Source: Paenibacillus sp. VTT E-133291 (GTDB taxonomy: Bacteria > Bacillota > Bacilli > Paenibacillales > Paenibacillaceae). From it: DNA of 64,000 bases. The stretch covers positions 1-64,000 of the forward strand of contig NZ_NFVA01000023.1 in NCBI RefSeq assembly GCF_002264395.1, in the 5' to 3' direction. The notes below the pieces were generated by a model, which made no database searches, was not told where the DNA came from, and saw nothing but the letters and a program-made list of their open reading frames with translations. The stretch's first letter is position 1. Every line of letters starts with the position of its first letter. This document shows, one piece after another, positions 33,147 through 64,000 of this stretch. The position numbers and the translations under genes were made by a program.

Positions 33147-33446
33147 TTAACCTGCGATCAGGTTTAATATTTCTTTGGTAAAGGTAATGATGACGCCTCC
33201 TGCCAGCGTTAAGAATCCATTAGCGCGCTGTGAAGGATCGTGCGATTTGAGCGATAAGCCGATTTGAACGATGCCGAAGCCCAATATAATCATGCCTACC
33301 GCGCGAATCAATCCAAAAATAAAATCGGATAAATTATTGACCGTTGTCATCGGATCACCCTGTGCGTAGACAGTGGATACCAGCATCGTTCCGAACAGTG
33401 TCATCATCATATAGACCGTCATCAGCCATTTGATTGCACGTTTCAA
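33147..33446 (-). CDS. VirB2-like/Maff2-like small membrane protein
   Basis: A 99-residue protein with a signal-peptide-like N-terminus cleavable after 'STVYAQG' and two membrane segments ('LIRAVGMIILGFGIVQIGLS', 'GFLTLAGGVIITFTKEILN'). This fits VirB2-like pilin or Maff2-type proteins between VirD4 and VirB6. It begins at TTG 33446 within a TTGA overlap with the VirD4 stop, indicating translational coupling. Confidence 0.82.
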   Translation of the reverse strand: MKRAIKWLMTVYMMMTLFGTMLVSTVYAQGDPMTTVNNLSDFIFGLIRAVGMIILGFGIVQIGLSLKSHDPSQRANGFLTLAGGVIITFTKEILNLIAG

Positions 33447-37252: not shown

Positions 37253-38585
37253 TGGTATTCATCTCCTCTCGTATGGGACGTTCCGATTCGCATGCCTTTA
37301 ACAAATGGGTCATTCCCTCTGACCGGGTAAGGATACCCGTACAAAGTTTCACTTCTTTCCGCAGCTTGGCAAGCTGGCGGGATAATTCAGTAATTTCCGC
37401 TTTGTAAACTGCAACCTGATCTTCCTGCTTACAGCGGCGTAGCCGGTTATACAAGGTTTTGCGTGCGCCGTAATGTCGTTTCATATCCGCCTGAAGCTGG
37501 CCGTGGTAAGCGAGCAACTCATCTTCCGTGGAAATGTGACGGCGACACAAAAGCCTCGTCTGATCGATGATAAGCGTCAAGTGTCGTAAATCCTGACGCA
37601 ACAAAAAATGCGTCCTCTTCGGGGACGCACGATGCTTGGGCAGGATGCCCATCTGATAAAGATAGCGCAAGTATAATGCCTGTAAGCCGCTAAATTTACG
37701 CGAGCTTCTAAAGCCGCCACTCACCTTGACTACTCGCTTGCGTCGCCGCTGCGGAAGAGGCGTCTGGCGTTTCGGCATACGATTCTGTAAGATACGTTCC
37801 TTTAACGCTTCCTCGGTATAATGGTCTCCCAGACTACGCAAGCGGACGAATCGCTCCTTGCCGGGCGGACGTAAAGCCAGATGTTTTACATTCGTTTTGA
37901 TTTCATACCCCTGTTTCTGTAAAGCGGCAAAAAACTGAGTCATCGTCATGGAAGCGGCAATGGCCGTGTCGATATCTTCCCGAATCAGCCCCCGCCAAGT
38001 TGGTCTGTTTTCACGCTCCGCTTGCCACTCCCCGTAGTGCTTGGCTTTGCCTGTTTCGGGACGTTCAATGACCGACAGCTCATATTCCCGGCATAGCCGG
38101 TCGGACGTTTGCCGCATAAGGGCATAAGAAGCTTTGTTGTCGTAATAACGTTTGCCGTCTAGGAATGAGACGGAATTAAGGACGAAATGATTGTGCAAAT
38201 GATCTTTGTCCAGATGGGTCGCTACTACAACTTCAAAGCGTTCCCCCCAAAGCTCCTGCGCAAGCTTGACACCGATGGCATGTGCAACTTCTGGTGTCGC
38301 TTCACCAGGCGCGAACGACTGGTATCCGTGAAACGCAACAATGCCATCCGTTTTTTGATATTGCCGCTTGGTACGCTGCATTTGCTCATATGCAGTAAGC
38401 GAATCGCAGTTCACCCCACTGACGTAAAGCTGTTTTTCCGTTTTCACATCTGCTGTCGTGTAGTTCAGCGCCTGCTGCAAGTTGTTAGGCTCTAAACGAT
38501 CTTGTGCCGTTTTGTCAGGATTCCGGGCGTAATCCAATACGCGCTTCAAGCGGTCGGTTACATCCCATATTGCGGTGGTCGCCAT
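37161..38585 (-). CDS. relaxase (MobP-type, VirD2-like domain)
   Basis: The enzyme that nicks oriT and leads the strand into the recipient. The N-terminal domain has the 'YVSGVNC' pattern (about residue 54), and the metal-binding His cluster 'HLDKDHLHNHF' (His124, His129, His131, His133). The C-terminal half is basic and helical. Length 474 residues is usual. It lies 13 bp after mobC and its 3' end overlaps the PcfB gene by 92 bp. The probable oriT lies just upstream of mobC. Confidence 0.93.
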   Translation of the reverse strand: MATTAIWDVTDRLKRVLDYARNPDKTAQDRLEPNNLQQALNYTTADVKTEKQLYVSGVNCDSLTAYEQMQRTKRQYQKTDGIVAFHGYQSFAPGEATPEVAHAIGVKLAQELWGERFEVVVATHLDKDHLHNHFVLNSVSFLDGKRYYDNKASYALMRQTSDRLCREYELSVIERPETGKAKHYGEWQAERENRPTWRGLIREDIDTAIAASMTMTQFFAALQKQGYEIKTNVKHLALRPPGKERFVRLRSLGDHYTEEALKERILQNRMPKRQTPLPQRRRKRVVKVSGGFRSSRKFSGLQALYLRYLYQMGILPKHRASPKRTHFLLRQDLRHLTLIIDQTRLLCRRHISTEDELLAYHGQLQADMKRHYGARKTLYNRLRRCKQEDQVAVYKAEITELSRQLAKLRKEVKLCTGILTRSEGMTHLLKACESERPIREEMNTNEQRKRSGRSGRQHEPARNRGHGEDFRRRR

Positions 38586-46900: not shown

Positions 46901-48243
46901 TCACGCTCGTCCTCATGGTCATTAAAATACGTTGCGATGTCCGACTTACTCTCCCGTAGCGGCGCAGCTCGAAGCATATCATTAATGATCGCTTGGTCAT
47001 GAAAAAACGGAAGACTTTTATCCTCCGTTTTCCGGTCGTACCATTTTAGTGATAAATCAGTTCCGTAAGAATCAGTTCCTCCGCTTGTAGTTTCAGATGG
47101 TTCATGTGTTCCATCCAAGCCAGCGGATCGCTCGCCTTGTCCGGTGCTGGATTCAGTCGAAGCAGCTCTTGCATCGTCTGTTCGATCTGTTCCCGCGCTG
47201 TCCGGTCGATGTCTGTCAGATGGTGGTTTAGCTGTTCCGTCAACATCAGATGAGCGTACATCCCTTTGCGTTCGGTTTTCAGAAATGTCTTGCGCATCAT
47301 GCCGTACTTCCCGATCCGCATCGCTACCTTGCTCAATGTCAGGTCGGGCAGCAGGTAATCCCCTTGCGGCGTGTAGGTCAGTTCCATGTTCATCGTTCCT
47401 TTCTTGTAAGGTAGCTTCATTGTGCGATAAGGAATCGGGTCTTGCAAGGGTATGAGACGAATGGCTCTTATCTACTCGCTGAGCTTCTCGGCGTAACGCC
47501 CGGACGGTTGATTCCACTTCCCGTAACATCATCTCGGACACATCACTGATCGCTGCGCCCATATGTGACAGGGTGGGAAGCGTATTAAAATATCCGATCC
47601 CGGATAAATCCTCGATGCTGATGTAATGTGTCGGGTTCAACCCGCAACGGGCCAACACCATATAAGCGACAGACATTTCGGTTGTTTGCTTGAACAATAG
47701 TTCCACATGTTGTACATCCAAGTCGTCAAGCAAGCTGAGTTCCCGTTCTTTCATCAACTGCGCCACATAATCCGCACTATTGTCCTCTACTGCATTCCGC
47801 GCAGCAGCAATGAACGCAGCAGGCAGATCCGAACGTGTCTCGATTTCATCCGATACTCCGAATGCATTTTCCATTGTTTCGATCACAGCATCTGTGTCAT
47901 TATCCTGCAAATGCCATAGCAATATGGGCTGTCGTGTTCTACTCTGGGTATCCGACACATCGAACACATGACGCAGACTGAAGTGATTGCCCCGATCTTC
48001 GACCAAAGCAATCCCTTTTGCACCGCGTTTAACCCAGCGATCCAGCCGTTTGTTCCAAACATCTATCGGCGCGCAAGCCGTCGCGTCAGAACGTTGGGCG
48101 TAGATCAACAGTTGATCTTGAAACGGATATTTGTAGTTCCATGCTGCTGTTTGCAAAAAACTCGCCCATTCCTGAGGTTGATCGGTCACCGCACGAGCTG
48201 TGCTAGTCGCCAGTTCGACGATGCGTTGCAACTTGGCTGTCAC
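40951..48243 (-). CDS. polyvalent protein: ArdC-like, N6-methylase and SNF2-type helicase
   Basis: A 2,430-residue protein. Residues 1-110 resemble an ArdC-type N-terminal domain ('YPFQDQLLIYAQRSDATACA'). Residues ~250-420 are low-complexity, Asp/Arg/Ser-rich. A DNA N6-adenine methylase core follows with motif I 'VLEPSCGIGHFFG' (about 947) and catalytic 'AVGNVPFGGYG' (about 1009; NVPF for NPPF). A helicase core follows: Walker A 'AHCVGAGKTFAM' (about 1620), 'FVDEADSYKN' (about 1780), and C-terminal 'RSGRIVRQGNQ' (about 2120). Long coiled coils end the protein. Such multi-domain proteins are delivered by conjugative elements and phages and are thought to protect or process incoming DNA. GTG start behind GGAGGTG. 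Confidence 0.9.
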   Translation of the reverse strand: MTAKLQRIVELATSTARAVTDQPQEWASFLQTAAWNYKYPFQDQLLIYAQRSDATACAPIDVWNKRLDRWVKRGAKGIALVEDRGNHFSLRHVFDVSDTQSRTRQPILLWHLQDNDTDAVIETMENAFGVSDEIETRSDLPAAFIAAARNAVEDNSADYVAQLMKERELSLLDDLDVQHVELLFKQTTEMSVAYMVLARCGLNPTHYISIEDLSGIGYFNTLPTLSHMGAAISDVSEMMLREVESTVRALRREAQRVDKSHSSHTLARPDSLSHNEATLQERNDEHGTDLHAARGLPAARPDIEQGSDADREVRHDAQDISENRTQRDVRSSDVDGTAKPPSDRHRPDSAGTDRTDDARAASTESSTGQGERSAGLDGTHEPSETTSGGTDSYGTDLSLKWYDRKTEDKSLPFFHDQAIINDMLRAAPLRESKSDIATYFNDHEDERERLLYVRGLFQAGITELNLDEDVQAGFEPYRNVLHLWTGTADERTVQSFYDWGVITGHIASMILLNEFDISRGLEPSIQQQTLWMEQAGADKASAFLMPQAVIDAVLQNGSGFEHGKYRIALHFQQSLSAQENADFLKREYGIGGRLPALTGTDIHENHDSKGITLTRGSIMNPDARVVLPWMKVQKRIGELLEAGRYLNRQETERLPAYAEKQEEERLQRAAETARRNQTEADEPPSEEHPDLDEPSEPKQIPLNRERARYGYDVGSIVWIGADEYEIVQLTPQMAVLQDRQFPLFIKEWDIRDFERILRENPLNDHLIIGEQELELANEAAWEEAEDAHLPDESAINELEPATEPADVPDLSPTLVTRHLVPVPPSAPAVNYRIIDDELGHGGAKTKFKWNIEAIQLLNGLEQEQRQATADEQAVLARYVGWGGIPQAFDDANTGWAAEYAELQYLLAPEEYASARASTLNAHYTSPTVIKAMYDCLENMGFRNGNVLEPSCGIGHFFGLVPESLKDSRLFGVELDSVTGKIAKQLYPQASIAVSGFEQTNLPDSFFDLAVGNVPFGGYGVADKRYDKHKFLIHDYFFAKTLDKVRPGGIIAFITSKGTMDKKNPVVRKYIAERAELLGAVRLPNTAFQANAGTEVTADILFLQKRDRMVAVSEQTEAWLSLGETMGGVPINSYFVDHPDMVLGTMAFDDRMYGNRQETTCQPYPDTNLDELLREALSNIHAEWVEQEREDQPEEEDLSLPADPSVRNFSFALVEGHIYYRENSRMRRVETSATATGRIKGMIGLRDTVRELIEYQTEDYSDEAIQEQQRKLNALYDRFTAQYGLINSRANSLAFSDDSAYFLLCSLEIIDEEGRLLRKADMFTKRTIRQRINVEQVDTASEALAVSIGAKARVDLPYMSQLTGLTEEKLIEELRGIIFPNPEMQDETDQPVFETADAYLSGHVREKLRVAKQFAAYDKRYSENVKALEAVQPKDLDASEIDVRLGATWLPPQDIRQFLFELVDTPPMYQTYIDVMYSEYTAAWNVKGKSDDRSNNIKANVAYGTTRMNAYKILEDTLNLRDVRVFDTVYEDGVEKRVLNKQETAIAQQKQEMMKEAFREWIWRDPQRRERLTRLYNDRFNAIRPREYDGSHIRFTGINPEIQLRQHQVNAVARALYGGNSLYAHCVGAGKTFAMTAAAMESKHVGLCNKSMLVVPNHLTEQWAAEFLQLYPSANILVTTKKDFETKNRKTFCARIATGDYDAIIIGHSQFEKIPISTERQRQQLFEQISEITDGIRELKEARGERYAIKQLEKTKKTLQTRLEKLNDTSRKDDVVTFEELGVDRLFVDEADSYKNLFLYTKMRNVAGLSQTEAQKSSDMFAKCRYMDELTEGRGIIFATGTPISNSITEMYTMQRYLQYERIKRQGLQHFDAWASTFGETVTAIELAPEGTGYRAKTRFARFYNLPELMNVFKEVADIQTADMLQLPVPKAHFHNVAVPPSEFQRDMVADLARRAEQVRAKKVEPHEDNMLTITNDGRKLALDQRLANPMLPDDEGSKVSACADNVYRYWLKGQEQRLTQLVFCDLSTPKADGTFNVYDELRRKLVEKGVTAEEIAYIHDANTETKKKELFAKMRNGQVRVLLGSTFKMGAGTNVQTKLIALHDLDCPWRPRDLEQRSGRIVRQGNQNSEVHIFRYVTENTFDAYLYQTLENKQRFISQIMTSKSPVRSAEDIDETALSYAEVKALATGNPYIKEKMDLDIQVSKLKLLKANHLSQRYALEDRLLKLLPQQIKSTAERIEGYEQDVAMYVRSKTTVQGNADESNFPGMVIKDFTYSERTAAGEALLDACKGMTSPDPQAVGSYLGFSLWLSFDSFHKEYKAMLRGALSHTATLGADAGGNITRINNTLSDLPAKLEHAREQLVTLQKQMGTAKEQIETPFEKEQELQTKTARLAELNALLNMDKRENEGVDSVPDEETASPERKTTYRER

Positions 48244-52534: not shown

Positions 52535-53641
52535 TCATTCCACCTTCGAAATGGTATGATTAAAAAATAGACTGGCAGTAGGGGAAACTTTTAATGTGCT
52601 TCCCCAATCTCCCCCAACATTCGTTGTCATCTTAATGTCCGTGTATCCTTCATACCACACCTGTTTTTCAAAATCAGCATTCTGCGGAAACCATTCGTCA
52701 TAAATTAAGCGTTCAGGTTCTTGAAAAGAAATAAATTGTATCCGAAACTTGGTACGAATATAGTCTGCTCCGAATCCATCATGGAAAATCATAGACGGCT
52801 CTGGGTCTAAGTAGCCGATGACTTGAATTTGATTTTTCTTGACCCAATCCACGTATTCGCGAAGATATTTTAGTTCTGCATCGGAATTTCTCATCTTCGT
52901 ATCCAATATAGCTTTAGCCCACGTATCATCGATCGTTTTGTAATCAATGTTCAGCCATAGCGCGCCGAAAGTTTTCAAACGCTTCATCCATATGTCTATA
53001 TTGCCCTTATTGTATTCCGGTTCGTTAGTGTACAGTTCAGCAGCCACTTTGCTTCGACCAGGTCTGGAATATGGATAACCTATTTCATACATTTCATTTG
53101 ATACATCTGCCAAGATATAAGGATAGTCTTTCGCGTTCTTCGGCAGATTGTCCGTGCGAATCAGACGACCCCATTCATCATACCCGCTATTGGCATCTTC
53201 TTTTGTAAAGATGAATACTGTCGATGTGGAATTGTCCCATTCTACTGTTGCTCCCAGCACTTCGCTCACAAATCGGAGTGGAACAAACGTCCGACCGCCG
53301 TTCAAAATCGCTTTCGTATCAAATGCGACTTCCTTGCCATTTACCGTTGCCAAGTTACTGCCAATTGTCAAGATGATGGACTGATCGCTTCGCTCAATCG
53401 GGATCGTCTGGCTCTTGGATTCCCATCCGACCTTTGCGCCGAGCGATTCGGCAATAAAGCGCACGGGCACAAGCGTCCGCCCATTTTCATCTATAAATGC
53501 TTGTGCATCGGGAAACCAGAATTTTTGTCCGTCCATCACGACACTGACATACGATGGAGGACGGCTTGCAGCGCTTGCGGTTATGCTAAATACGCTAAAG
53601 ATCAGCAGCGTAATAAGTCCTGCACCTACCCATCTTTTCAT
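52535..53641 (-). CDS. secreted protein with copper-amine-oxidase-N stalk domain
   Basis: Signal peptide 'VGAGLITLLIFSVFSITASA', then two stalk repeats ('ENGRTLVPVRFIAESLGAKV' and 'NGGRTFVPLRFVSEVLGATV') of the Cu-amine-oxidase N1 family at about residues 30-150. The C-terminal ~220 residues are unassigned and Trp/Tyr/Asp-rich ('RLKTFGALWLNIDYKTI'). The frame opens at 53746, but the ATG at 53641 follows AAAGGAGC and starts the signal peptide. It lies in the transcript between the pilin-like genes and the large surface protein. Confidence 0.85.
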   Translation of the reverse strand: MKRWVGAGLITLLIFSVFSITASAASRPPSYVSVVMDGQKFWFPDAQAFIDENGRTLVPVRFIAESLGAKVGWESKSQTIPIERSDQSIILTIGSNLATVNGKEVAFDTKAILNGGRTFVPLRFVSEVLGATVEWDNSTSTVFIFTKEDANSGYDEWGRLIRTDNLPKNAKDYPYILADVSNEMYEIGYPYSRPGRSKVAAELYTNEPEYNKGNIDIWMKRLKTFGALWLNIDYKTIDDTWAKAILDTKMRNSDAELKYLREYVDWVKKNQIQVIGYLDPEPSMIFHDGFGADYIRTKFRIQFISFQEPERLIYDEWFPQNADFEKQVWYEGYTDIKMTTNVGGDWGSTLKVSPTASLFFNHTISKVE

Positions 53642-53768
53642 ACTCTTTGCTCCTTTCAATTCAAGAAATATCTTTGGAAGATTTAACCTATCGTTGTCAA
53701 CATCATAAAACTGATTCGGCAATATGTCCACTGTCTCAACAAGCATCCTACTTTAGCTATGAGTTCGC

Positions 53769-54743
53769 TCATGGGGGACAATCAAGTGGCATATAGCCTC
53801 TTTGGGCAGCCGCTTTTGCACTGACAAACGTTTCTTCAATTAGATACGAGTACCCACATGAACTCCGGTAATATACTTTCATATTTCCTTTTTTAGCCCC
53901 GATAATGTCATCACGTTTTATGACGCGACTTCCACCAAGCGCATAACTGTTATAGACTTTCGTCCCCATCGGAATCCCTTGTAAAAAAGCCAACACACCT
54001 ACGTCATCAACGGTATTGTGCCACTCTTCATCTGAAATGAATGGCAGGGTAAATGTATAGGACAAACCGCTCTTCGCGACTGTTTCATTATATTGATTGA
54101 TACGATAGGCTAGTTCATCCTGAATCGCTTGGACAATCGTGCTTCGGCGCACCTGTTCAAAGAGCATCGGGTCCTGTAAAAGCGGGATAGATGTTTGATG
54201 CTGGATGTCCTGCCGCAAGCCTTCATGCCAACTGCGGTTTGACGCATCATAAGCTAACACCTCTTGATCGAGCGTGAAAGATAGACTGTTGCCTCCTGAA
54301 TCGGTATAGGCATAAGGTTTCTTCGTTCCCCAAACCGATTTCAGAATGCTCTTTCCGTCTGTTCCTGTCCATTCATCCTCAGCATAGATGTAAAAACCGT
54401 CATAACCCACAATGACAATGGCGGGAATATATCGGTGTAACACGCCTGCGGCTATCGGATCGCCAGCTACGCCAAATCCCGCATCCAGCGTCCGAAAAAA
54501 AGTTTCCAGTGCTTCCTCTTTGTCGAGTGCTACACGCTTGGCAGATGCGTACTCTGCTTCCTGCCTCTGTGCGGCATTCATAATTAGCATACTCGCGGCA
54601 TCATCTACCGCCGCATTCAACACAGCATCGTAACGTAATTCAGTAAGCTGTACTTGTCGAAGTGTCTCGGTATCAATACGGTTGACGGTCACAAAGGGCA
54701 GAAACAGCAGGACACCGACGATCGCCCACTCAATCCATTTCAT
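53769..54743 (-). CDS. pilin-operon membrane-anchored protein
   Basis: A ~324-residue protein with one N-terminal membrane segment ('WIEWAIVGVLLFLPFVTV') and a large soluble domain, the layout of a minor pilin or assembly factor. The frame opens at 54902, but the ATG at 54743 follows GGGGTGG and overlaps the previous gene by 14 bp. No family was recognised. It is the last of the pilin-like genes before the two secreted proteins. Confidence 0.7.
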   Translation of the reverse strand: MKWIEWAIVGVLLFLPFVTVNRIDTETLRQVQLTELRYDAVLNAAVDDAASMLIMNAAQRQEAEYASAKRVALDKEEALETFFRTLDAGFGVAGDPIAAGVLHRYIPAIVIVGYDGFYIYAEDEWTGTDGKSILKSVWGTKKPYAYTDSGGNSLSFTLDQEVLAYDASNRSWHEGLRQDIQHQTSIPLLQDPMLFEQVRRSTIVQAIQDELAYRINQYNETVAKSGLSYTFTLPFISDEEWHNTVDDVGVLAFLQGIPMGTKVYNSYALGGSRVIKRDDIIGAKKGNMKVYYRSSCGYSYLIEETFVSAKAAAQRGYMPLDCPP

Positions 54744-55281
54744 TGCGCACCACCCCGCCATAAGGAATAACAATTTTTTCGGTTGGACTGATCGTATTAG
54801 CCAGAAAATCAAAATACAATGTACCTGCTGTTCGATTGAGATTCCGAACGACAACCGAAAAGTAATCGCCCGTATGCATCCTGTATCGACGACTGGGATC
54901 ATCCTTTGCTAGGGAATTACCGGGAAACAGTACCGATAAAATTTGCGCTTGATAGTAGGAATCATAGTGGATTTCATACGTGTTTTGAAATGTTTCCGGC
55001 CTTGTTGGATCAAGATAGACCGGTACGTACTTCTTGCTGCCATGTTCCATCTCCACTACGAATGTATTGCCAGTCGCCGAAAGTGCGGACATCAAGTCAT
55101 TGTACATCGTCGGCGTTATACCACCTTTATCCCTCACTGCATCCACAAATTGCGTTGTTGCGCGTAAAGCGACTAATTCTGAAATATCGTCTTGCTGCTC
55201 GAATGCAGCCGAGATGGGGTAGAGGTAGAGCAACAGCACAGCGATCAATACAGCGAATATTTTCAAAAAGCTGTTCATCAT
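54730..55281 (-). CDS. pilin-like membrane protein
   Basis: A 183-residue protein: N-terminal membrane segment ('LKIFAVLIAVLLLYLYPIS') and an extracytoplasmic domain containing 'YNDLMSALSATGNTFVVEME', a pattern I associate with Tad-like loci of Gram-positive mobile elements. It overlaps its upstream neighbour by 4 bp and its downstream neighbour by 14 bp, so translation is coupled. Probably a minor pilin or pseudopilin. Confidence 0.7.
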   Translation of the reverse strand: MMNSFLKIFAVLIAVLLLYLYPISAAFEQQDDISELVALRATTQFVDAVRDKGGITPTMYNDLMSALSATGNTFVVEMEHGSKKYVPVYLDPTRPETFQNTYEIHYDSYYQAQILSVLFPGNSLAKDDPSRRYRMHTGDYFSVVVRNLNRTAGTLYFDFLANTISPTEKIVIPYGGVVRNEMD

Positions 55282-55670
55282 GGCAAGCTCCTCACCAACA
55301 CCCGTTGCAAGCGACCATCTGTATCCCGTTCATATATGGGTACATAGCGAGCTTGCAGATTCACATTCGCCGCTTGAAGCGATTCCCTAGGAAAGGACGG
55401 CGCATACCGAACACCGTCTACGATTATTTCCGCATCACCTTCTTCAAGCCGAGCCAGAGTATGCAACACTTCCGAACCAGATAATGTGCCATCACCTGCA
55501 AGTGGTGAATACGTCTGATGCAAGCTGCGATCTTGATCGCGACCGGATAGATAGGTGAGCGAATTAAGACTAGAACCAGTGTGAAATAAAATGAATCCAC
55601 TTGTTGCGGCCATCAGAAAAATGAGCAAAGCCACGCTCATTTCAATCATTTGTTTTGGTGCATAATCCAT
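55278..55670 (-). CDS. pilin-like membrane protein
   Basis: A 130-residue protein with a hydrophobic N-terminal helix ('MIEMSVALLIFLMAATSGFI') preceded by a short basic head, as in pseudopilins. Its 'GTLSGSEVLHTLARLEEG' matches 'TTLSGSQVVNALRKFRDQ' in the 55741-56220 protein, so the two are paralogues. A stem-loop separates them. No prepilin peptidase gene is seen in the window. Confidence 0.7.
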   Translation of the reverse strand: MDYAPKQMIEMSVALLIFLMAATSGFILFHTGSSLNSLTYLSGRDQDRSLHQTYSPLAGDGTLSGSEVLHTLARLEEGDAEIIVDGVRYAPSFPRESLQAANVNLQARYVPIYERDTDGRLQRVLVRSLP

Positions 55671-55686
55671 AACATCCTCCCCTTGC

Positions 55687-55724
55687 TATACAAGGCATCT
55701 AGCATAGCGCCGGATGCCTGTATA
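55687..55724 (-). terminator. hairpin downstream of the major pilin-like gene
   Basis: TATACAAGGCATC (55687-55699) pairs with GATGCCTGTATA (55713-55724), a 12-bp stem with one bulge, between the pilin-like stop codon and the next gene. It has no long T-run, so it may be an mRNA-stabilising or partial terminator. Confidence 0.5.
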
Positions 55725-55740
55725 ACGGTCACTTATTCAA

Positions 55741-56220
55741 TTACTGCTGACGGAAGATAATACCGCGAATGACATTACTGCTGTCGAGCACCAATGATGC
55801 GCGGAACTTGCCGCTTGGATTGACATAGTTAATATCTGCCTCGTCTACCGTTTGACTGATTTGACCAGGAGCGGTTCCCTCAATCATGCCATACGTGACA
55901 CTATCTAGCGGAACACTCGTATTCACCACCTTGCCATACCATTGGCCAGTCGGATTTTTTCCTGTCACGATTTGAATACCGAATTGATCTTGGTCACGGA
56001 ACTTACGCAAAGCGTTGACCACTTGGCTACCTGAAAGTGTTGTGTTGTCATACACGGTAAATGCCGTTTGCGACAATTCAGTTTGGATGTTGCTAAAATT
56101 GCTTTGCGCCGCTTTCGTGGAATCCTGTGCGGAAGTAAACAGAACTACCGCGAGTGTAATGAGGGCAATGGCAAGAAAAATACCTGCGGCCATCACCAGT
56201 GCTTTTTGTGCGTTGGACAT
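55741..56220 (-). CDS. candidate major pilin-like protein
   Basis: A 159-residue protein with one N-terminal helix ('LVMAAGIFLAIALITLAVVL') after a short basic head, then a soluble domain with the 'LSGSQVVNALRKF' paralogue motif and a C-terminal beta-like stretch 'SGKFRASLVLDSSNVIRGII'. It follows a strong terminator hairpin (56256-56278) and precedes another hairpin, so it probably has its own transcript level. It resembles Tad/Flp-type pilins in layout only; the Flp sequence motif is absent. Confidence 0.7.
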   Translation of the reverse strand: MSNAQKALVMAAGIFLAIALITLAVVLFTSAQDSTKAAQSNFSNIQTELSQTAFTVYDNTTLSGSQVVNALRKFRDQDQFGIQIVTGKNPTGQWYGKVVNTSVPLDSVTYGMIEGTAPGQISQTVDEADINYVNPSGKFRASLVLDSSNVIRGIIFRQQ

Positions 56221-56255
56221 GTGTCAATCTCTCCTTTTATTTTGGGAATAAAAAA

Positions 56256-56278
56256 ACGCCTTCCGTTTTGGAAAGCGT
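56256..56278 (-). terminator. terminator upstream of the pilin-like gene
   Basis: ACGCCTTCC (56256-56264) pairs with GGAAAGCGT (56270-56278, one mismatch pair). On the minus strand the stem is followed by TTTTTTT. It lies in the gap between the TadC-like gene and the pilin-like gene, so the pilin gene probably has its own promoter or is transcribed by limited read-through. Confidence 0.75.
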
Positions 56279-56287
56279 CTGTGCTGA

Positions 56288-58357
56288 TTACTGGATACGT
56301 TGAAGCTGATCATAGTACATCGTCATCTGATGTAGACTCACAACTACAAGCGGGATGACTAAATAACCAAAGATTAGCGACATGAGGGGCGCAAACCCGA
56401 TCAGACGACCCCAGCCAGCTTTTTGCTCAATTAACTGCTCATATTCTTGTTTGCGCTGTTCTCTGGCAAAAGCCTGTTCCGATTCAAGATCATCAAACGC
56501 CTGTTTGATCGGTAAATGCTGCATCGCAAGTTCCAGCTTTTCAATGGTTCGGATGAACGGCAAAAAAGGCGCATCCTCCTTGAGTTGCGTGAGCGATTGC
56601 TCCGCACCATGTTCAAAATGAAGCAAACACGTTTGCAACGGTTCGCGAAAGATACGGGCGAACTGCTCCATCCACATCAAGAGCTGTTCGACCGACATGC
56701 GTTCCATGCCAACCAGCATACCAATCACAACTTGTAACTGGTCTACTTCATGCTTCATCTCCATTTGCCGCATATGCCGTCTAAACCAACGTATGCCGAC
56801 AGGCATCACATAACCGCCCCAACCAGCCCCGATGGCCAACAGCCCTTCCCACCAGGCAAATAGCGGTTTTTCCAGTTTTGCTAGCTTGCCCAAAATACGC
56901 CTCGCCGCTGGACGAAGCTGCTCATCCTGATCTTGAACATTCATTTCCTTGCGTAACAGACCCATCACCGTATTTTCGTTGCGCGGCCTCACCTCCTTCA
57001 ATTGTGAAAGTATGCGTCGATCTAGTAGAGCGATCTCATGCGCTTTTGCTTCTTCCACTGGTGTCAGTTGGCCAAACATCGTCCCCGGTTTTACCGGTTC
57101 GTACAAGATTTGATGCCGGTCTGTCACCGTCAAGGCAACAAATAGACTTAGTGCGATAAAAAAAGCAATACACCCGGCTGTAATGCGCTGCACATAAAAC
57201 CATTCCAGTCGTAGTGGAGAGGCGGTATCTTTAAGCAGTTTGGTCACGCGCTCCGCTTCCGCTGATCCCGGCATCGGCCCAAGTCGATGGACAAGTGAGC
57301 GTATCCACGGCCAGTTATACGCCCGTTGTTCCCATCTTCTTCGGCTGGTAGGGCGATGCGTCATATCCAGTTCTGAGATATTACGCAGCAAAACGTAAGA
57401 AATCCATACGATGGCAAGCACGGCGATTTTAATGGCCCAACCCCAAGCACTCCCATAAAACGTATCCATTGCTGGAAAATAACGACTTGCCCAAGCTTCA
57501 ATCGGATGTGTGGCGAGTAGAGGAAGCAGAGCAATGATCGACAATCCTTGCAGAAGGTAGCCAAGCCGCTCCCTGCGCAACAATTCCAAATTGAGTTCGC
57601 CTGTCAATTTTTCCAATCCCTTAAGGTACACGGAACCCGTGTCGCTTTTGGGATCACCGTGTTCTTTTACCAAGTGGGATAATCCCGCCATGCCTTGCAA
57701 ATAGCGATTGGGTGCAAGTTCCACATATTGAGCCAGCTTTTCTTCGCTATCGCTAGCGGATAACGTTTCATAGAGTGCCTGCCCATGAAGTGTCATCTCA
57801 TATGGAGCACCGTCCGCCGCGTCATAAATCGCTTCTTCAACCATCCCATGCCGATGATATTGATGCCGAACATCTCCCATAAAGTTTCGGAGTTGCCGTA
57901 ACAGCCGTACTTCGAGCCGATGAACCCCCATATCCGACAGTATTCCATGTCCAACCCATAGCCCAATGCCAAGCATGCCCCATGTAAAAAGGTCTCGCAC
58001 CATAAGCACAATGGGAATGGCAATCAGCAGCAATAATCCCCAGATGAATAACACAGATTTCATGGTTTCTAACCGCAGCTTCCATTCATCGCTCAAACTC
58101 AAAATCGCTAGTCGTCTACGGACATGAACCAAATACGTCCGTAAGATGGGCACTTGCTCACAGAAGCTATATAGCCACTGCAACCTGCTATACAGGATTT
58201 GTCTGCGCGATGTTTTTCCCGGCTGGCGCAGCGCTTCGTATCGGCGCGCCGCTGCCACTTCCGTATTGCGGCGAGACAACCACATAAATGCGGCGAGAGC
58301 AATTAGAAACAACACGGTTGCCATACCTAGCAGCAGGGATAACCCATCACGATCCAT
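56288..58357 (-). CDS. TadC/type-II-secretion-F-like membrane protein
   Basis: A ~690-residue membrane protein, longer than single TadB or TadC proteins (about 300), suggesting a TadB-TadC fusion or duplicated architecture. Membrane segments lie near the N-terminus, at ~110-150, ~270-330, ~410, ~540 and at the C-terminus ('LIGFAPLMSLIFGYLVIPLV'). It is the platform protein for pilus assembly. The ATG at 58357 (after GGGGGG) overlaps the ATPase gene's 3' end; an ATG two codons earlier is also possible. Confidence 0.78.
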   Translation of the reverse strand: MDRDGLSLLLGMATVLFLIALAAFMWLSRRNTEVAAARRYEALRQPGKTSRRQILYSRLQWLYSFCEQVPILRTYLVHVRRRLAILSLSDEWKLRLETMKSVLFIWGLLLLIAIPIVLMVRDLFTWGMLGIGLWVGHGILSDMGVHRLEVRLLRQLRNFMGDVRHQYHRHGMVEEAIYDAADGAPYEMTLHGQALYETLSASDSEEKLAQYVELAPNRYLQGMAGLSHLVKEHGDPKSDTGSVYLKGLEKLTGELNLELLRRERLGYLLQGLSIIALLPLLATHPIEAWASRYFPAMDTFYGSAWGWAIKIAVLAIVWISYVLLRNISELDMTHRPTSRRRWEQRAYNWPWIRSLVHRLGPMPGSAEAERVTKLLKDTASPLRLEWFYVQRITAGCIAFFIALSLFVALTVTDRHQILYEPVKPGTMFGQLTPVEEAKAHEIALLDRRILSQLKEVRPRNENTVMGLLRKEMNVQDQDEQLRPAARRILGKLAKLEKPLFAWWEGLLAIGAGWGGYVMPVGIRWFRRHMRQMEMKHEVDQLQVVIGMLVGMERMSVEQLLMWMEQFARIFREPLQTCLLHFEHGAEQSLTQLKEDAPFLPFIRTIEKLELAMQHLPIKQAFDDLESEQAFAREQRKQEYEQLIEQKAGWGRLIGFAPLMSLIFGYLVIPLVVVSLHQMTMYYDQLQRIQ

Positions 58358-60215
58358 GCTCATCCCCCCAATACACTGCGAGAAACGCATCAAAGGCCGC
58401 TTGATCAGGACCACTCAGATGTTCTGCCATTTCTCTCCGATTTTGGTCAGATAGCGGATGAACGGCAACATATCGACCGTCTTGGTACTCGATGATATTG
58501 CGAGCTGCATACAACGGACGATCCGTGGTGCGCCGAAAATATTCAAGTACGGTTTCCATAAAAGCCGTTAATCGATCGTCCGTTGTCATGTTTCCGCGAA
58601 AGGCTTCCGGGTACGCCGTTTCCTGCGATATCGGAACGCACTCTGTAATACGCTCAATGTAACGCCGTCCGTCCACATCGCGGCGCAGGTGGATGTCGAA
58701 GTTGACCACACTGACTACCTGCTGCTCCGCGATACGTTCGTTTGTAAACACACCTGTTTTAAGCAACGAGTTGCGCAGCGATAAAACCAAGTCACGAAAC
58801 GTTTTCGCATGATGGGTAAACAGCGTAAAAAGGGAAGCGACTTGCGCCATCTGCACCATCCAAGCTGCGACTGGATCAGTCGCAACTTCGCCCAAAATAT
58901 TTACAGAACCATCCGTTTTCTTTTGGATATCCAGCCCTTCCTGGCCTGAAATCGTCTCTGTTTCGCGCAGACTGACAATATTGCGATGCGGATAAATTTT
59001 GCGCAATTGCAGTTCAAAGCTCATTTCCTGCACTCGGATCGGCAACACGGCGGAAATATGACGAACCATCGCCATCAACAACGTTGTTTTCCCGCTGCCC
59101 TGTGCGCCTGTAATCGCTGTAATGCGCGCACCTGATACCAAATAACGAATAAGGCTGATCGGAAGCTCCGCTCCTTCATCTTGGATCAACTGCTCCAACG
59201 TGGCGCTCTGCACATCAAATTTGCGCACAAAAAAAGCCCACGATTCACTGAACCGAGGGCGCAACACGACGACGCGAGAGCCGTCTGCCATTTCATTGAC
59301 CTTATATCCGGTTGCTTCCGAAAGCTGACCGGGAAAATTATGCTTGTAGATGTTTTGGCAGACACGCCGCAGTTCCTGTTCCGAACCAAAGGATAGAAAC
59401 CGGAGCTGAATCGACTTTCCTTTGTAAAACAGCCATACACTTTCGTGCGAGCGAGGCAGCGCCTGCGTTTGCATCTCTTCATCATACGTCCAATCCCCTT
59501 CCCACATGAGCGGGGGCAGACCGGACACGCCGCCGGAAACACCATCAATTCGCATATCGCGAATCTCGTCAATGACACTGTACCCTTTGTAGTGCTGATA
59601 AATCCGCTGTACAATGATTTGGATTTTATCATCTGTTGTCAGACGAGGTGCTTCCTCGGCGTAGATACTTTGAACATCCTCTGCTGTCATGCAGTACGAT
59701 TCTAATTGCCCATCCTCATCCCATTTCGGCTTATCCAGTTCATATGTTTGAATCAACTTATCCAGTGCATGCAGTCGTTCTCGCTTCTTATATAGATAAA
59801 GCAAGATATCAAACTGATCTTGCGGGGTTAACCGCTCCGGTTTATGAAATGGCAATAGTAAATTCAGATTTGCGTCATCCCATTCATAGTGTTGTGCGAG
59901 TACATCTGCAATGACTTGCTTTACATATTCCTTATCCCTTATATCCCCGGAAGTACAACCGCGCAATGCCTTCTTTAGTTCCGCACGTTTATTTTTACGA
60001 CGGCGAAAATCTTCTGCTGATAATCCGTAATCATTCAAATGGCTGCTGGTCAGTTCATGCAATGTCCCCTTAATGAATGCTGTCATAGCTTCAAACGTAT
60101 AAAGCGGCGCAGCAGGCTCTTGTTCCGGTAGGCGGCGACTCATCCGCATATAGAGGAAAAAGCACACGAGTAACAGCAGCATTCCTAAGATAAAGACATT
60201 CAACCAGATCATCAT
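58347..60215 (-). CDS. TadA/CpaF-like secretion ATPase
   Basis: The hexameric ATPase that powers Tad-type pilus assembly. The 622 residues begin with a membrane segment ('NVFILGMLLLLVCFFLY'), unusual for TadA. Walker A 'GAQGSGKTTLL' lies near residue 370, and the Walker B-like region 'GSVNILGEVATDPVAAWMVQ' near 435. 'HHAKTFRDLVLSLRNSLL' fits the His box region. It overlaps the TadZ-like gene by 4 bp. Confidence 0.87.
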   Translation of the reverse strand: MMIWLNVFILGMLLLLVCFFLYMRMSRRLPEQEPAAPLYTFEAMTAFIKGTLHELTSSHLNDYGLSAEDFRRRKNKRAELKKALRGCTSGDIRDKEYVKQVIADVLAQHYEWDDANLNLLLPFHKPERLTPQDQFDILLYLYKKRERLHALDKLIQTYELDKPKWDEDGQLESYCMTAEDVQSIYAEEAPRLTTDDKIQIIVQRIYQHYKGYSVIDEIRDMRIDGVSGGVSGLPPLMWEGDWTYDEEMQTQALPRSHESVWLFYKGKSIQLRFLSFGSEQELRRVCQNIYKHNFPGQLSEATGYKVNEMADGSRVVVLRPRFSESWAFFVRKFDVQSATLEQLIQDEGAELPISLIRYLVSGARITAITGAQGSGKTTLLMAMVRHISAVLPIRVQEMSFELQLRKIYPHRNIVSLRETETISGQEGLDIQKKTDGSVNILGEVATDPVAAWMVQMAQVASLFTLFTHHAKTFRDLVLSLRNSLLKTGVFTNERIAEQQVVSVVNFDIHLRRDVDGRRYIERITECVPISQETAYPEAFRGNMTTDDRLTAFMETVLEYFRRTTDRPLYAARNIIEYQDGRYVAVHPLSDQNRREMAEHLSGPDQAAFDAFLAVYWGDEHGS

Positions 60216-61048
60216 CGTGTACCATCCTCCTGCCTGCCAAAGAAAGGACGGTCTGCCCCTGCACGTTTCGTCAATGCATGTGCCAGCTGTCGTATTTGAT
60301 GCACGAAAAGATAGTTTTCGTGCGTTCGCGTAAGTCGTTGGTTATGAAACCAATAGCTGGTCGCACCGCCATATTGTACAGCATCTAGCCATCCCGTATT
60401 ATGAACTACAGGATGTGCATGTGGCAGATCAGGAAATTGACGCATCAGATTTTTGGCAGACAATCGCGAACGAAGGTCATATTGACCGATAACAAACAGG
60501 GTCTTTCTTTCTCGCAGTAACGCAAATTCGGATGACCGAAAGAAACGTTCGAGCAACAGTCGATTTTGTGGTAAACAAATAACCAGCACGTCTGCTGCCT
60601 CCCATAATCTATTTGCTCCTTTACCACTGCCGCCGTCAATGAGAATCAGATCATACGCACGTTTTGCCATATCGAGAAGCGGTATAATCCTCGTTTGTGA
60701 GTCGTCTTGAAATAAATCATCCGACTTCAAGGAACCGGGCAATAGGTCGAGACGATCTTGCAACAACGGCATGGCATAGTCTCGCAACATGCCATACTCT
60801 AGTTTTCGATTTTGCAAGAGCCGAAGCAATGCATCGATGCCCACATCTCGCGTATGCCTTTCACCCATTACTGATAACGTAAAGAACGCACGAGCAACAG
60901 CAGCATATTCGCTTTGTACATGCCCGAGCAGCAATACGCGGGCGGAATATTCCATACCCAGACACGATGCAATGGCAATTAAATTAGTCGTTGTTCCAGC
61001 TTGTCCCGCAACAGGACTCCAGAACACAACGGTCGTCCCCATAGACAC
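60212..61048 (-). CDS. CpaE/TadZ-like ParA-family ATPase
   Basis: A 278-residue protein with the deviant Walker A 'VAGQAGTTTNLIAIASCLG' and 'AYDLILIDGGSGKGANRLWE' as Walker B region, followed by 'DVLVICLPQNRLLLERFF'. The glycine-rich loop lacks the usual Lys of 'GGVGKTT'. In Tad loci such proteins position the pilus machinery. GTG start behind AAAGGAG. Coupled to the ATPase gene by a 4-bp overlap. Confidence 0.82.
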   Translation of the reverse strand: MSMGTTVVFWSPVAGQAGTTTNLIAIASCLGMEYSARVLLLGHVQSEYAAVARAFFTLSVMGERHTRDVGIDALLRLLQNRKLEYGMLRDYAMPLLQDRLDLLPGSLKSDDLFQDDSQTRIIPLLDMAKRAYDLILIDGGSGKGANRLWEAADVLVICLPQNRLLLERFFRSSEFALLRERKTLFVIGQYDLRSRLSAKNLMRQFPDLPHAHPVVHNTGWLDAVQYGGATSYWFHNQRLTRTHENYLFVHQIRQLAHALTKRAGADRPFFGRQEDGTR

Positions 61049-61060
61049 TCAGTCTCCTTT

Positions 61061-61768
61061 CTACCACATTCGGTTGCGTTTCCGAACGCTCGACCAGGCC
61101 TTTCTAGCTGCTTTGCTGTCACATTCGCAAAGCTGTTGCAACATCGTCAGTAGGTTTTGTTTATACGCTCCCGACAGCCCCCGAAGCTGGATACGGCTAT
61201 GATGCTGATTATCCAGATCGACAGCGGCATCACGCTCATCAAGCGGAAATTGAAATTCCGTTTCCTCCCATTGCAGTTGGCGCGTGCGCGTATCTAATCG
61301 CCATTCGGATAAGGTACCCATCAGGGCAGGGGAGAGCATCCGGTAAAACAAAAGTGGTGTCGCCGCTTCGTGCAGACACAAACGAAGCAATAAATCTTCA
61401 TTACGGTGTAGGGAAGTTCTCCTTCCATCCCAACACCATACTCGTTTCTCATAGCTGGAAATTTCCTTCCCTGCAACAAACTGTGTATGATCGGTATCTA
61501 GCAGCATGATGTCATAATCTGTTTCAATAAGCGGCTGCGTCAGTCCGCGTTCCAGTTGCATCCCATTGATATAACCATAGGCTACATCCATTCCCTCAAA
61601 TTCCTGTATGCCACTACCCGATGTAGCATACGGCAAATAGCCCTGTACAGATTGAGCCATTGTCGAGTCAATCAACAACACCTTGTGATTTAGTTCCGTC
61701 AGCAAGCGACCTAGTACCAAGAGCACATGGCTCTTGTCCGCCGCACCGAAAAAAACAATCTTTTTCAT
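61061..61768 (-). CDS. degenerate ParA-like partner protein
   Basis: A 235-residue protein that begins 'MKKIVFFGAADKSHVLLVLG' with a ParA-like fold pattern ('HKVLLIDSTMAQ', 'TDYDIMLLDTDHTQF') but without a Walker A lysine loop. It lies between the CpaB-like and TadZ-like genes, 12 bp from each neighbour. It is probably a non-catalytic paralogue or partner of the TadZ-like ATPase. Confidence 0.7.
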   Translation of the reverse strand: MKKIVFFGAADKSHVLLVLGRLLTELNHKVLLIDSTMAQSVQGYLPYATSGSGIQEFEGMDVAYGYINGMQLERGLTQPLIETDYDIMLLDTDHTQFVAGKEISSYEKRVWCWDGRRTSLHRNEDLLLRLCLHEAATPLLFYRMLSPALMGTLSEWRLDTRTRQLQWEETEFQFPLDERDAAVDLDNQHHSRIQLRGLSGAYKQNLLTMLQQLCECDSKAARKAWSSVRKRNRMW

Positions 61769-61780
61769 GTGTGCTCTCCT

Positions 61781-62881
61781 TTACTGATTAAAGATATCAT
61801 TCCATTTCTCCTCATCTGATTGGTTCTCATCATCCGGTACAACGCTTGGCTGCGTATCCGCCGGTGGCGATGGCGGTACTATAGGGTCATCCTCTACTAC
61901 ATCAGTCGGTGCTGGTGTTGGAATTGGTTGCTGCTCATCTATAGCAGGTAATGTTAGCGGCAATTCAGTTACGGACTGCATTTCGTATATGGCGTTGCCT
62001 TGCTGCGTAGTCGTGCGTTCGTTTTGCAACTGTTGCTGCACCGTGACACTGCCGCTTGTTGTACGCAATTTATCCGACTCACTCATCGCCTTGAGATTGT
62101 CATCCAATGTTTCTCGCAATGTACGCGCAAGCTCTGTCTTTGCAACTTCCAGTAGATTCGGATCATTTTCCATTAGATCGAGTACCAGCGGATTAGCCGG
62201 ATAATTAACAATCGCGGCTTCCTGCAACCCTGGCTCAATATAGGGCAGCGCATACAGGCGAGCGCCTTGCAAATACGCATCAATGATGGCACTGGATGTT
62301 TGCAAAATATCCAATTCGTTCATCTCCAACCAAACGACCGTCCCGGATAGCTCACGCACCCTCTTTTTAGACAACAACACGAAGTCCTCACCGGTAGGAA
62401 AACCAATTCGCACATCAATAAACTGTGCAGGTTTAAGGTTTGAAGGAAGTTGGATGACCTGAAATTCTTTAATTCTCAAGTCCTTCGGAACCGGCTGACC
62501 CTCATAGAGGAGGGAAGATAACAGCGGTGTCCCCGGCAACAGTTCGATTTTGGCGCTCTTTCCAATAATGGCTTCCCGGTCGGTAATTACGCCGGGTGGA
62601 ACGATGGTGACTGGCATGGGCACTGCCTTTAGATCATCAGCAGTCAACATACTGCCCGCCTGAACGGTTTTAACCGTAGTCCATACGCTCCTTTGATCCT
62701 GCTTCTCTTGCATTTTGAACTGCTCGATTTGTTGTTCATATGCTGCTTGCATCTTTTGGTGCTGTTGCTGCTGTTCGATGTGCTGAATCATCAGATACAC
62801 GGATGCGGCAATCAACAGGCAAACGCTAATTGCGATTGTTCCGATCACCAACGCTTTACGGTGACGATAGCTCCATAACAT
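61781..62881 (-). CDS. CpaB/RcpC-like SAF-domain protein
   Basis: A 366-residue protein with one N-terminal membrane segment ('ALVIGTIAISVCLLIAASVY'), a Gln-rich coiled coil (50-85), then a SAF domain ('VKTVQAGSMLTADDLKAVPM', 'PPGVITDREAIIGKSAKIEL') typical of CpaB/RcpC pilus-assembly proteins. The C-terminus is Pro/Thr/Asp-rich. It is the first recognisable Tad gene in transcription order. Confidence 0.82.
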   Translation of the reverse strand: MLWSYRHRKALVIGTIAISVCLLIAASVYLMIQHIEQQQQHQKMQAAYEQQIEQFKMQEKQDQRSVWTTVKTVQAGSMLTADDLKAVPMPVTIVPPGVITDREAIIGKSAKIELLPGTPLLSSLLYEGQPVPKDLRIKEFQVIQLPSNLKPAQFIDVRIGFPTGEDFVLLSKKRVRELSGTVVWLEMNELDILQTSSAIIDAYLQGARLYALPYIEPGLQEAAIVNYPANPLVLDLMENDPNLLEVAKTELARTLRETLDDNLKAMSESDKLRTTSGSVTVQQQLQNERTTTQQGNAIYEMQSVTELPLTLPAIDEQQPIPTPAPTDVVEDDPIVPPSPPADTQPSVVPDDENQSDEEKWNDIFNQ

Positions 62882-62927: not shown

Positions 62928-63539
62928 TCAACGCGCGTCATCCCGTGATCGCGGCTTCGGTGGCGCTTGCTCCGATTGTCGTTGTGCCAGCTTCTCGGTA
63001 GCCCACGCTGGAGTATGCTCCGACTTGAGAAAGCCCATCAGATCTTCACGGTTATATCGGTATTCATCGCCGGAATAGAGCGTTTCTGCATAGACTGCTC
63101 GTCCGCGGGAGTTTCCCGAAGCCCCGAAACCTCCCATTACCCAAATCAACTGATGGTCTGCCGTACGAAATGCTGGCCGCAGCCATTCCGGACGAACGAC
63201 GACAATCTTGCCCATGAGATCATCCTCACCCTTGATCGGGATGCAATGGGTCGGTTGAATGGGAGGCATCGGCTCCGCGATCGCAGCGCGCTCGGTCTGG
63301 AGTTTCTCGATTTCCCATTGCAACAGCTGTGCAAATTCCTGCATGGCGACCAAGTAATCCTCATATCCCTCCGCACCATAATACTGATCGATGCCAAACA
63401 AATTGTTCTTGTCGCAATAGCAAACTAGATAGGGCTTCTCGGTATTCATCGTGTCGATACCCAAAATCACCTCGACCCTCCCAATGGGCAACGCTTGATA
63501 GACTTCGTATTCGCCAGCCATTCGCTTTTCCTGTTCCAT
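62928..63539 (-). CDS. hypothetical element protein
   Basis: A 203-residue soluble protein ('YEVYQALPIGRVEVILGIDT', 'KPYLVCYCDKNNLFGIDQYY') with a disordered basic tail. It resembles small accessory proteins of Firmicute conjugative elements that come between ParB-like and structural genes, but no family could be named. Its ATG lies 3 bp after the stop of the small upstream gene, whose 3' end carries its GAGG site. Confidence 0.65.
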   Translation of the reverse strand: MEQEKRMAGEYEVYQALPIGRVEVILGIDTMNTEKPYLVCYCDKNNLFGIDQYYGAEGYEDYLVAMQEFAQLLQWEIEKLQTERAAIAEPMPPIQPTHCIPIKGEDDLMGKIVVVRPEWLRPAFRTADHQLIWVMGGFGASGNSRGRAVYAETLYSGDEYRYNREDLMGFLKSEHTPAWATEKLAQRQSEQAPPKPRSRDDAR

Positions 63540-63791: not shown

Positions 63792-64000
63792 TTATCGTTC
63801 CTGATCCCGTTGCCGTCTTCGATACCAAGATTCGAGTAGTTGAACAATGAGGTCTTCCTTTTGTTTCACGGTGAAGTCCCGTGGGAAGAAACGGTCGATC
63901 CGCTCTCCCTTGATCGTAAGCTTTTCTTTCTGATTCGGCTTCTCCTCTGTGAGAATCGAGAAGATGACATCCACGTTAAGTCGTCCATCTTGGCTCAGTT
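63792..64000 (-). CDS. ParB-like partition protein, C-terminal part (truncated by window)
   Basis: The last ~69 residues of a longer frame: 'LSQDGRLNVDVIFSILTEEK', 'PNQKEKLTIKGERIDRFFP', 'FTVKQKEDLIVQLLESWYRR'. This matches the C-terminal end of ParB/Spo0J-type proteins of Firmicute conjugative elements, where 'SEEKPNQKE' is a familiar stretch. The N-terminal ParB domain lies beyond the window. An internal GTG at 63974 is not a real start. Confidence 0.75.
   Translation of the reverse strand, partial: LSQDGRLNVDVIFSILTEEKPNQKEKLTIKGERIDRFFPRDFTVKQKEDLIVQLLESWYRRRQRDQER

Follow-up and report, generated by a model that had tools for sequence, protein, structure and literature searches.

Positions 1 to 64,000 of contig NZ_NFVA01000023.1 of Paenibacillus sp. 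VTT E-133291 (hereafter the window; the contig measures 74,895 bases, the genome 7.1 Mb) contain a block of Tad-like pilus assembly genes beside the transfer genes of a conjugative element, and this pairing is the subject of the present analysis. A sequence-only reading of the window had placed a complete, collinear Tad-like locus at 53769-62881 and proposed that it forms an adhesion or mating-pair apparatus feeding a type IV secretion system (T4SS). All of the genes named in that interval are intact open reading frames (ORFs) on the minus strand, transcribed in the order cpaB/SAF, ParA-like 1, ParA-like 2, tadA, a fused tadB-tadC gene and four genes for small membrane proteins (53769-56220), which we label PilA, PilB, PilC and PilD. 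Two genes for secreted surface proteins follow directly, as had been read, one for a stalk protein with a copper-amine-oxidase N-terminal domain and one for a DUF5704 protein; the gaps from cpaB through the DUF5704 gene lie within -14 to +70 nt. The start of the last gene of the block, read at 54902, is moved by alignment A6 to near 54743. Terminator-like sites number 28 against 17.7 +/- 4.1 in shuffled sequence, several of them within genes, and promoter-like sites are about as frequent as in shuffles; no operon claim is therefore built on either.

The gene order is widely kept. Scanning a species-genome collection with the TadA alignment yielded at least 453 relatives, of which 80 loci from other genomes were examined; 77 of these retain CpaB-ParA1-ParA2-TadA-TadC on one strand, and L058, L072 and L102 begin at contig ends. 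Chance grouping of the block genes was rejected on this count. Among 22 genomes chosen by TadA similarity, 12 carry TadA and VirD4 on the same contig at 12-36 kb (15 loci; a pair 62 kb apart in G117 was not counted as linked). A gene-by-gene comparison of 19 elements, including the window and excluding G014 for its broken frames, found the same block in the same order in every one (19/19), with parA and parB upstream of cpaB and with the relaxase, VirD4, PrgI and VirB4 genes downstream on the same strand. The DUF5704, helix-turn-helix and polyvalent genes follow the block in 18 of the 19, G009C45 being without the DUF5704 and polyvalent genes; for G019, the DUF5704 gene itself was observed in the family search described below, where the genome appears as G167. 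Across these elements, the distance matrices of the Tad and T4SS proteins are strongly correlated (Mantel r 0.846; none of 9999 permutations as high). Values of dN/dS for nine Tad genes against the nearest relative range from 0.036 to 0.206, which indicates purifying selection between close relatives. Taken together, these comparisons support the Tad-like block as a conserved and co-inherited part of an integrative element family.

Downstream of the surface protein genes, the element continues with a helix-turn-helix gene, a 2430-aa methylase/helicase, DUF3991/Toprim, relaxase, DUF3801, ArdC-like, VirD4, PrgI and VirB4 genes and, later, an NlpC/P60 gene; ParA lies just past the window end. The polyvalent protein, relaxase and T4SS genes that the sequence-only reading had listed were thus matched, and the relaxase, coupling ATPase, VirB4-like ATPase and cell-wall hydrolase expected of an integrative conjugative element (ICE) are all present. 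The contig continues into a rumA-like gene, and three genomes without the element there share homology only to the 3' end of that gene; because their homology stops at this point, the element has probably inserted there. A RumA relative adjoins the cassette at ten loci read, eight at no less than 61% identity to the query (its own locus included) and two at 43-44%. An att repeat of at least 13 bp was sought and not found, and no integrase was identified among the scanned proteins of the window's contig. IS or att boundaries between the Tad and T4SS parts would, on the sequence-only reading, have told against a single unit. No transposase matched among the scanned proteins of window 28.5-64 kb, a few short ORFs of which lay outside the scan; of the insertion elements identified, those at 20.9 and 26.6 kb of the window come nearest to the T4SS. 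Insertions do occur before the relaxase in some relatives, and a Cohnella plasmid with the same order carries an annotated TnpV gene between block and relaxase. Side observations include heavy-metal genes after VirB4 at window 22.5-26.2 kb, with an arsenic pump within 23984-26183; MerA/MerR-like genes beside rumA (L004:1856-3916), read by eye; copper and mercury genes after VirB4 in the region of genome G096, whose tRNA and integrase were likewise read by eye from translations; and a second VirD4 of the host genome on another contig (C152:43691-44980).

Table 1. Features of the Tad-like block and its element in the window.
Feature	Position	Strand	Support
CpaB/RcpC-like SAF-domain membrane protein	61781..62881	-	Pfam SAF E 6.8e-10; TIGR03177 E 4.6e-10, under NCBI cut-off
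ParA/MinD-like protein 1, degenerate P-loop	61061..61768	-	profile A10 best solved match MinD 4v03 E 4.9e-4; no Pfam match
ParA-like protein 2 (CpaE/TadZ position), degenerate P-loop	60212..61048	-	AAA_31 E 0.072; profile A9 best solved match 2oze E 0.0097
TadA/CpaF-type assembly ATPase	58347..60215	-	profile A1 vs CpaF 8rkd E 3.8e-16; Walker A at residue 370
Fused TadB-TadC platform, two predicted GspF-like domains	56288..58357	-	AlphaFold model pLDDT 80 and VIA-align
PilA, candidate major pilin, 159 aa	55741..56220	-	model pLDDT 82; N-terminal helix 2-55 and alpha/beta head
PilB, small membrane protein, minor-pilin candidate	55278..55670	-	position kept in plasmid relatives
PilC, small membrane protein, minor-pilin candidate	54730..55281	-	conserved family
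PilD, larger membrane-anchored protein, possible tip-forming minor pilin	53769..54743	-	conserved family; start from alignment A6
Secreted stalk protein, copper-amine-oxidase N-terminal domain	52535..53746	-	PF07833 1.1e-38
Secreted DUF5704 surface protein, 1277 aa	48698..52531	-	PF18964 2.3e-77
203-aa backbone gene	62928..63539	-	relatives also in clostridial sister elements
ParB end	63792..63998	-	remaining parB and parA beyond window end
Polyvalent protein, 2430 aa, N6-methylase and SNF2/helicase	40951..48243	-	
Relaxase, MobA/VirD2 type	37161..38585	-	PF03432 2.1e-41
VirD4 coupling ATPase	33443..35260	-	PF02534 5.4e-56
PrgI-family protein	30831..31181	-	PF12666 1e-30
VirB4-like ATPase, CD1110 type	28502..30847	-	PF19044 3.9e-18; 86% identical to Cohnella plasmid protein annotated CD1110 family
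NlpC/P60 cell-wall hydrolase, T4SS region end	12510..14513	-	PF00877 3.9e-16

The individual parts are recognizable as Tad components to different degrees. The SAF protein and the TadA-like ATPase are what they had been read to be, the latter through a profile that also matches CpaF 9e24 (E 5.9e-16) and falls below the NCBI equivalog cut-off. The two ParA-like proteins, the second at the CpaE/TadZ position, are so classed by weak profile matches; their P-loops are degenerate, and the N-termini listed for ParA-like 1 are without the Walker A lysine pattern. The reading of a TadC-like platform holds in the model: residues 144-270 align with SpoIIIAB (Z 11.1, rmsd 2.9, 118 residues) and residues 532-635 with the PilC N-domain 2whn (Z 8.0, rmsd 3.3, 100 residues). 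These likenesses come from VIA re-alignment only, Pfam and profile searches having given no trusted sequence match and Foldseek no match; on the model, a single fused protein with two GspF-like domains is predicted to take the place of the TadB/TadC platform. Of the four proteins read as pilin-like, the first, which is the sole one modeled, has a pilin-like layout of one long N-terminal helix and an alpha/beta head, but no significant structural match was obtained; profile searches of solved structures with PilA, PilC and PilD, and a search with DUF5704, also gave nothing significant. Of 14 products set against those of two relatives, PilA is the best conserved, with identities of 99% and 90%.

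The block also departs from a classical Tad locus. A G/A-x4-E motif before the hydrophobic stretch occurs in none of 40 PilA rows and none of 15 PilC rows, and in one of 15 rows each for PilB and PilD, the matching PilD row being that of the window with codons preceding its likely start; the same scan recovers the motif in the Flp pilin that the host encodes at its ordinary Tad locus (contig C233). Prepilin peptidase is absent from the block, Peptidase_A24 being matched only at C233 and C226, other contigs of the genome. Such a peptidase may be encoded apart from the Tad locus, according to the available text of one report (PMC6668835). The locus is therefore complete in the sense of the conserved cassette, not in the sense of the classical set. 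To judge by its genes, the block would work like a Tad system, yet two defining features are missing, the Flp/prepilin motif and a peptidase in the locus.

The surface proteins provide a second link. In a sample of 148 genomes, taken from named relatives to be Paenibacillaceae, DUF5704 is found in 76 of 80 Tad-positive genomes and in none of 68 Tad-negative ones; four Tad-positive genomes are without it, and many DUF5704 copies do not adjoin a Tad locus. This co-occurrence, which shared ancestry inflates, points to DUF5704 as a filament partner, and it offers a first functional lead for a Pfam family on which our literature search found no publication. By eye, the stalk and DUF5704 proteins carry ordinary-looking N-terminal export signals, and SLH-domain proteins occupy the stalk position in some other elements. 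Two plasmids have other, very large surface proteins in place of stalk and DUF5704 after PilD, a 3700-aa protein with leucine-rich repeats (L024:26471-37573) and a ~2927-aa protein with an SLH annotation (L023:27341-36124). Matches to DUF5704 reach eight per genome (G067, where two look like pieces of one gene), with seven in G157 and six in G088, and several of the multiple copies lie near a Tad and EssC locus.

Sister elements carry a different protein at this place. The VirB4 proteins closest to that of the window outside the family are encoded on a Monoglobus record (77% identical), and two Subdoligranulum records follow at 61% and 60%. The Monoglobus record keeps parA, parB, the 203-aa gene, the polyvalent protein, DUF3991, relaxase, VirD4, PrgI and VirB4, with a sortase after VirB4; labelled a plasmid, it may be a chromosome because it carries aspS, hisS and lon. 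In its parB-polyvalent interval a protein of 1416 aa is encoded, in which Pfam recognises a thioester domain and ten SpaA domains, along with an LPXTG anchor match below threshold; this was the one of three sister surface proteins covered by the Pfam scan. In the two Subdoligranulum records the same interval encodes, judged on length and tail, a comparable protein of ~1,400 aa that ends in an LPXTG-like tail. One of these proteins is split by a ~650-aa ORF (L190:15046-16989) that looks by eye like an intron-encoded protein. That sister elements encode a large surface protein in this interval fits an adhesion role for the block, and from these proteins we infer that an attachment module has been exchanged.

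Copies of the cassette are found well beyond conjugative elements. In the 148 family genomes, TadA occurs in at least 80 (96 loci, being 97 table rows minus the second half of a split TadA in G036), VirD4 in 21 (23 loci) and EssC in at least 50 (57 loci); the search scored eight candidates per genome for TadA and four for EssC, so that these counts are lower bounds. VirD4 loci lie within 40 kb of TadA in nine of 23 cases against 0.37 expected, with only one, not significant, within 20 kb. EssC loci lie within 20 kb of TadA in 11 of 57 cases against 0.40 expected, one of them in this genome. Three genomes have a Tcp-type VirB4 with 86% identity or more to the query, each time within 14 kb of a TadA; five others are distant (27-29%), and one of these lies 20 kb from a TadA that had already been counted. 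The genome sets overlap (for example G003/G038, G006/G054 and G019/G167 share coordinates), and the 22-genome and 148-genome results are not independent. The second cassette of this genome, on contig C130, comprises the same gene families as the window block and adjoins EssC-like, WXG100 and small genes in the layout of a type VII secretion system (T7SS) of the T7SSh kind. The cassette family is not specific to conjugation; some of its members adjoin T7SS loci, and others occupy a chromosomal site that recurs between genomes. On C130, a 486-aa gene at the TshM position (L005:5660-7120), its TshM identity judged from order, size and a C-terminal helix, is homologous to the gene just upstream of cpaB in T7SS-free cassettes (e.g. 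L018:15611-17047; hhalign 98.6%, E 1e-15), and it is possibly a component of the Tad machine and not of the T7SS.

On a TadA tree with 79 tips, built from part of the available loci, the 21 CD1110-type elements form a single clade (support 1.0). It is nested in a broader clade in which the other members, so far as examined, have a Tcp-type T4SS; copies linked to a T7SS appear at three positions. With the CD1110 elements nested among Tcp-type ones, it therefore looks as if the T4SS had been exchanged while the Tad block was retained. A broader proposal, which we regard as tentative, is that this divergent type IV filament family, with pilins lacking the classical motif and with DUF5704 proteins, might be a portable contact organelle of Bacillota that has become coupled to translocation machines of unrelated kinds (two or more types of T4SS and, at three places of the tree, T7SS) wherever delivery needs a held neighbour. 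No relative was found on viral contigs, and a pXO1-type origin, a lead from the literature, was rejected: no Bacillus cereus group plasmid is among the best 40 TadA plasmid matches listed or among all TadC matches.

A model for the block in the window emerges in which it is, on balance probably, the attachment module of a Paenibacillaceae ICE family. The model draws on what was observed directly, namely gene content, gene order, co-inheritance with the T4SS, purifying selection and the thioester/SpaA adhesin of a sister element. The PilA-like protein would be assembled into a filament by the CpaF-type ATPase and the fused TadB-TadC platform, and PilB-D would supply its minor or tip subunits; the stalk and DUF5704 proteins, both secreted, would serve this filament as surface partners or adhesins. 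Such a filament would most likely bind cells and keep donor and recipient in contact, perhaps also drawing them towards each other, which would allow DNA transfer by the adjacent T4SS; filament formation, cell binding and a benefit to transfer are each what we infer here.

Several results weigh against this reading. The co-occurrence with transfer genes, seen for nine of 23 VirD4 loci, has as its other side that 73 of 96 cassettes are near none of three translocation markers (VirD4, EssC, Tcp-type VirB4). At least six of ten opened contexts share one recurrent chromosomal site, its neighbour genes named by eye from translations, where no transfer marker matched except NlpC-like hits; among the remaining contexts, G048 shows an EssC locus, G134 another site, and G102 an element. 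That element of G102, located at the same rumA site, keeps the block intact; its relaxase is short, no VirD4, PrgI or VirB4 was detected over the 80 kb read, and the genome as a whole gives no PF02534 match. Among plasmid records, 317 have a VirB4 relative (E 1e-30) and 25 a TadC relative (E 1e-5); because the former far outnumber the latter, the T4SS class can do without the block, and a Paenibacillus urinalis plasmid with a T4SS of the same class is not among the TadC matches. The 203-aa gene follows the adhesin in the sister elements and precedes the Tad block in the window's element, so the interval is the same and the junction different. G002, G005C24 and G010 have extra DNA inside the polyvalent gene or between it and the relaxase, G009C17 has it between the DUF5704 and polyvalent genes, and G009C45 has lost both of these genes; the right part of the interval is therefore a place of insertion. 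In the compared elements, no insertion was seen in the parB-to-DUF5704 stretch. Finally, because fold searches with PilA gave no trusted match, it is taken as a pilin only from its layout and gene position. By eye, a recombinase-like ORF follows the polyvalent gene in G005C24 (L198:8353-10323), and several ORFs split that gene in G010 (C6, L203).

The block does occur in related genomes without conjugation genes, the finding that the sequence-only reading had said would count against it, but in part only, through G102 and the T7SS-linked and marker-free cassettes. These same loci, and the many plasmids with a T4SS of this class and no block, speak against a pilus dedicated to conjugation. Thus, the earlier observation is confirmed and its interpretation partly supported: an adhesion or mating-pair role fits the sister-element adhesin, and dedication to conjugation or a feeding of the T4SS is not supported.

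The stand-alone loci also lend themselves to a different explanation, that the block is cargo, an adhesion or biofilm organelle of benefit to the host whose link to the T4SS is mere stable residence on the element. That chromosomal loci of the family, to all appearance standing alone, are common, that the block stays intact in G102 and that most loci have no tested transfer neighbour would all suit such cargo. We nevertheless think it unlikely: the block sits between parAB and relaxase in every element compared and tracks the history of the T4SS, the heavy-metal genes seen lie elsewhere, after VirB4 or beside rumA, and sister elements hold a different surface protein in the same interval. Somewhat less probable again is a short pseudopilus, a device resembling a type II secretion system (T2SS) whose task would be to export the stalk and DUF5704 proteins, to display them, or to make a wider passage through the wall for the T4SS, with no long pilus. 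Confinement of DUF5704 to Tad-positive genomes, the absence of a Flp-type pilin and a PilA without prepilin motif are in keeping with it, as is the label 'putative T2SS' given to Sulfobacillus relatives in the available text of PMC6803676; the ordinary-looking export signals of both surface proteins in a monoderm that needs no second secretion step, and a PilA that is the best conserved of the products compared, as suits a filament subunit, argue against such a device. A pilus that binds DNA or acts in its uptake, for which a Flp locus reported in Micrococcus luteus transformation (as quoted in the available parts of PMC5696575 and PMC8370563) offers a precedent, is very improbable, given that among the block genes none was recognised as a known uptake gene and that the T7SS-adjoining copies would be left unexplained.

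With the block read as an attachment module, the comparison with known systems begins with the canonical Flp/Tad systems, represented by the C233 locus of the same genome and in the available text of PMC6668835, with which the block shares TadA, TadB/TadC, CpaB and ParA-like parts. Relative to C233, the window's TadA is 26% identical over the matched part, TadB and TadC are fused, the pilin candidate has 159 aa against 62 aa for Flp, and there is neither a prepilin motif nor a TadV. Tad loci beside T7SSg and T7SSh share the arrangement of the C130 cassette with its T7SSh layout; their neighbour is a T7SS and not a T4SS, T4SS-linked copies go unmentioned in the relevant passages, and the authors call the meaning of the Tad-T7SS link unclear (PMC11217815).

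CD1110/CD1115-type plasmids of Bacillota have relaxase, VirD4, PrgI and VirB4 in the same order as the window's element, and most of the relatives listed are without the Tad block. How Gram-positive donors hold on to recipients is usually explained by surface adhesins and not by type IV-family pili; an element family with a Tad-like machine, set against a sister with a thioester/SpaA adhesin, provides a natural comparison for what mating attachment needs. Filaments of conjugative elements are familiar from Gram-negative hosts, where the pili of PAPI-1, TP114 and R64 are of type IVb, not Tad-type, and work with outer-membrane parts; type IVb conjugative pili such as those of PAPI-1 and R64 have a PilV-type tip and a PilQ-type ATPase, and the filaments of TP114 and R64 reportedly recognise or stabilise the recipient. 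The Kil system of Myxococcus, also in a Gram-negative host, serves predation. According to the available text of PMC5297154, the type IV pilus of PAPI-1 aids its transfer, a likeness to the filament proposed for the block in being an element-encoded type IV filament that recognises or stabilises the recipient, and Kil, in the portion of PMC12075869 that concerns it, resembles the proposed working of the block in combining a Tad-like pilus at cell contact, minor-pilin tips included, with a separate needleless type III secretion system.

The nearest parallels, compared by description only, are two. On a linear, putatively conjugative plasmid of the Gram-positive Cutibacterium acnes, a tad locus adjoins VirB4/FtsK/TcpC-like genes, and its TadE-type product was found by mass spectrometry in sheared surface fractions; it differs in the prepilin-type motif of TadE1 and in belonging to Actinomycetota, and the available text leaves the link to transfer open (PMC5696575). 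In Sulfobacillus thermotolerans, plasmids pL15 and pY0017 and an integrated 83-kb region of Kr1 pair Tad-like and conjugation genes. They are alike in MinD-like, CpaF/TadA and TadB/TadC-like genes on a backbone of MOBP relaxase, TraG, primase and VirB4, and in heavy-metal genes and an integrated form, and unlike in that their authors read a putative T2SS, with stalk/DUF5704 proteins and co-inheritance unmentioned in the available text (PMC6803676). No publication on the element family of the window was found in the open-licence literature. The pairing of Tad-like and conjugation genes is already in print for Sulfobacillus and Cutibacterium plasmids.

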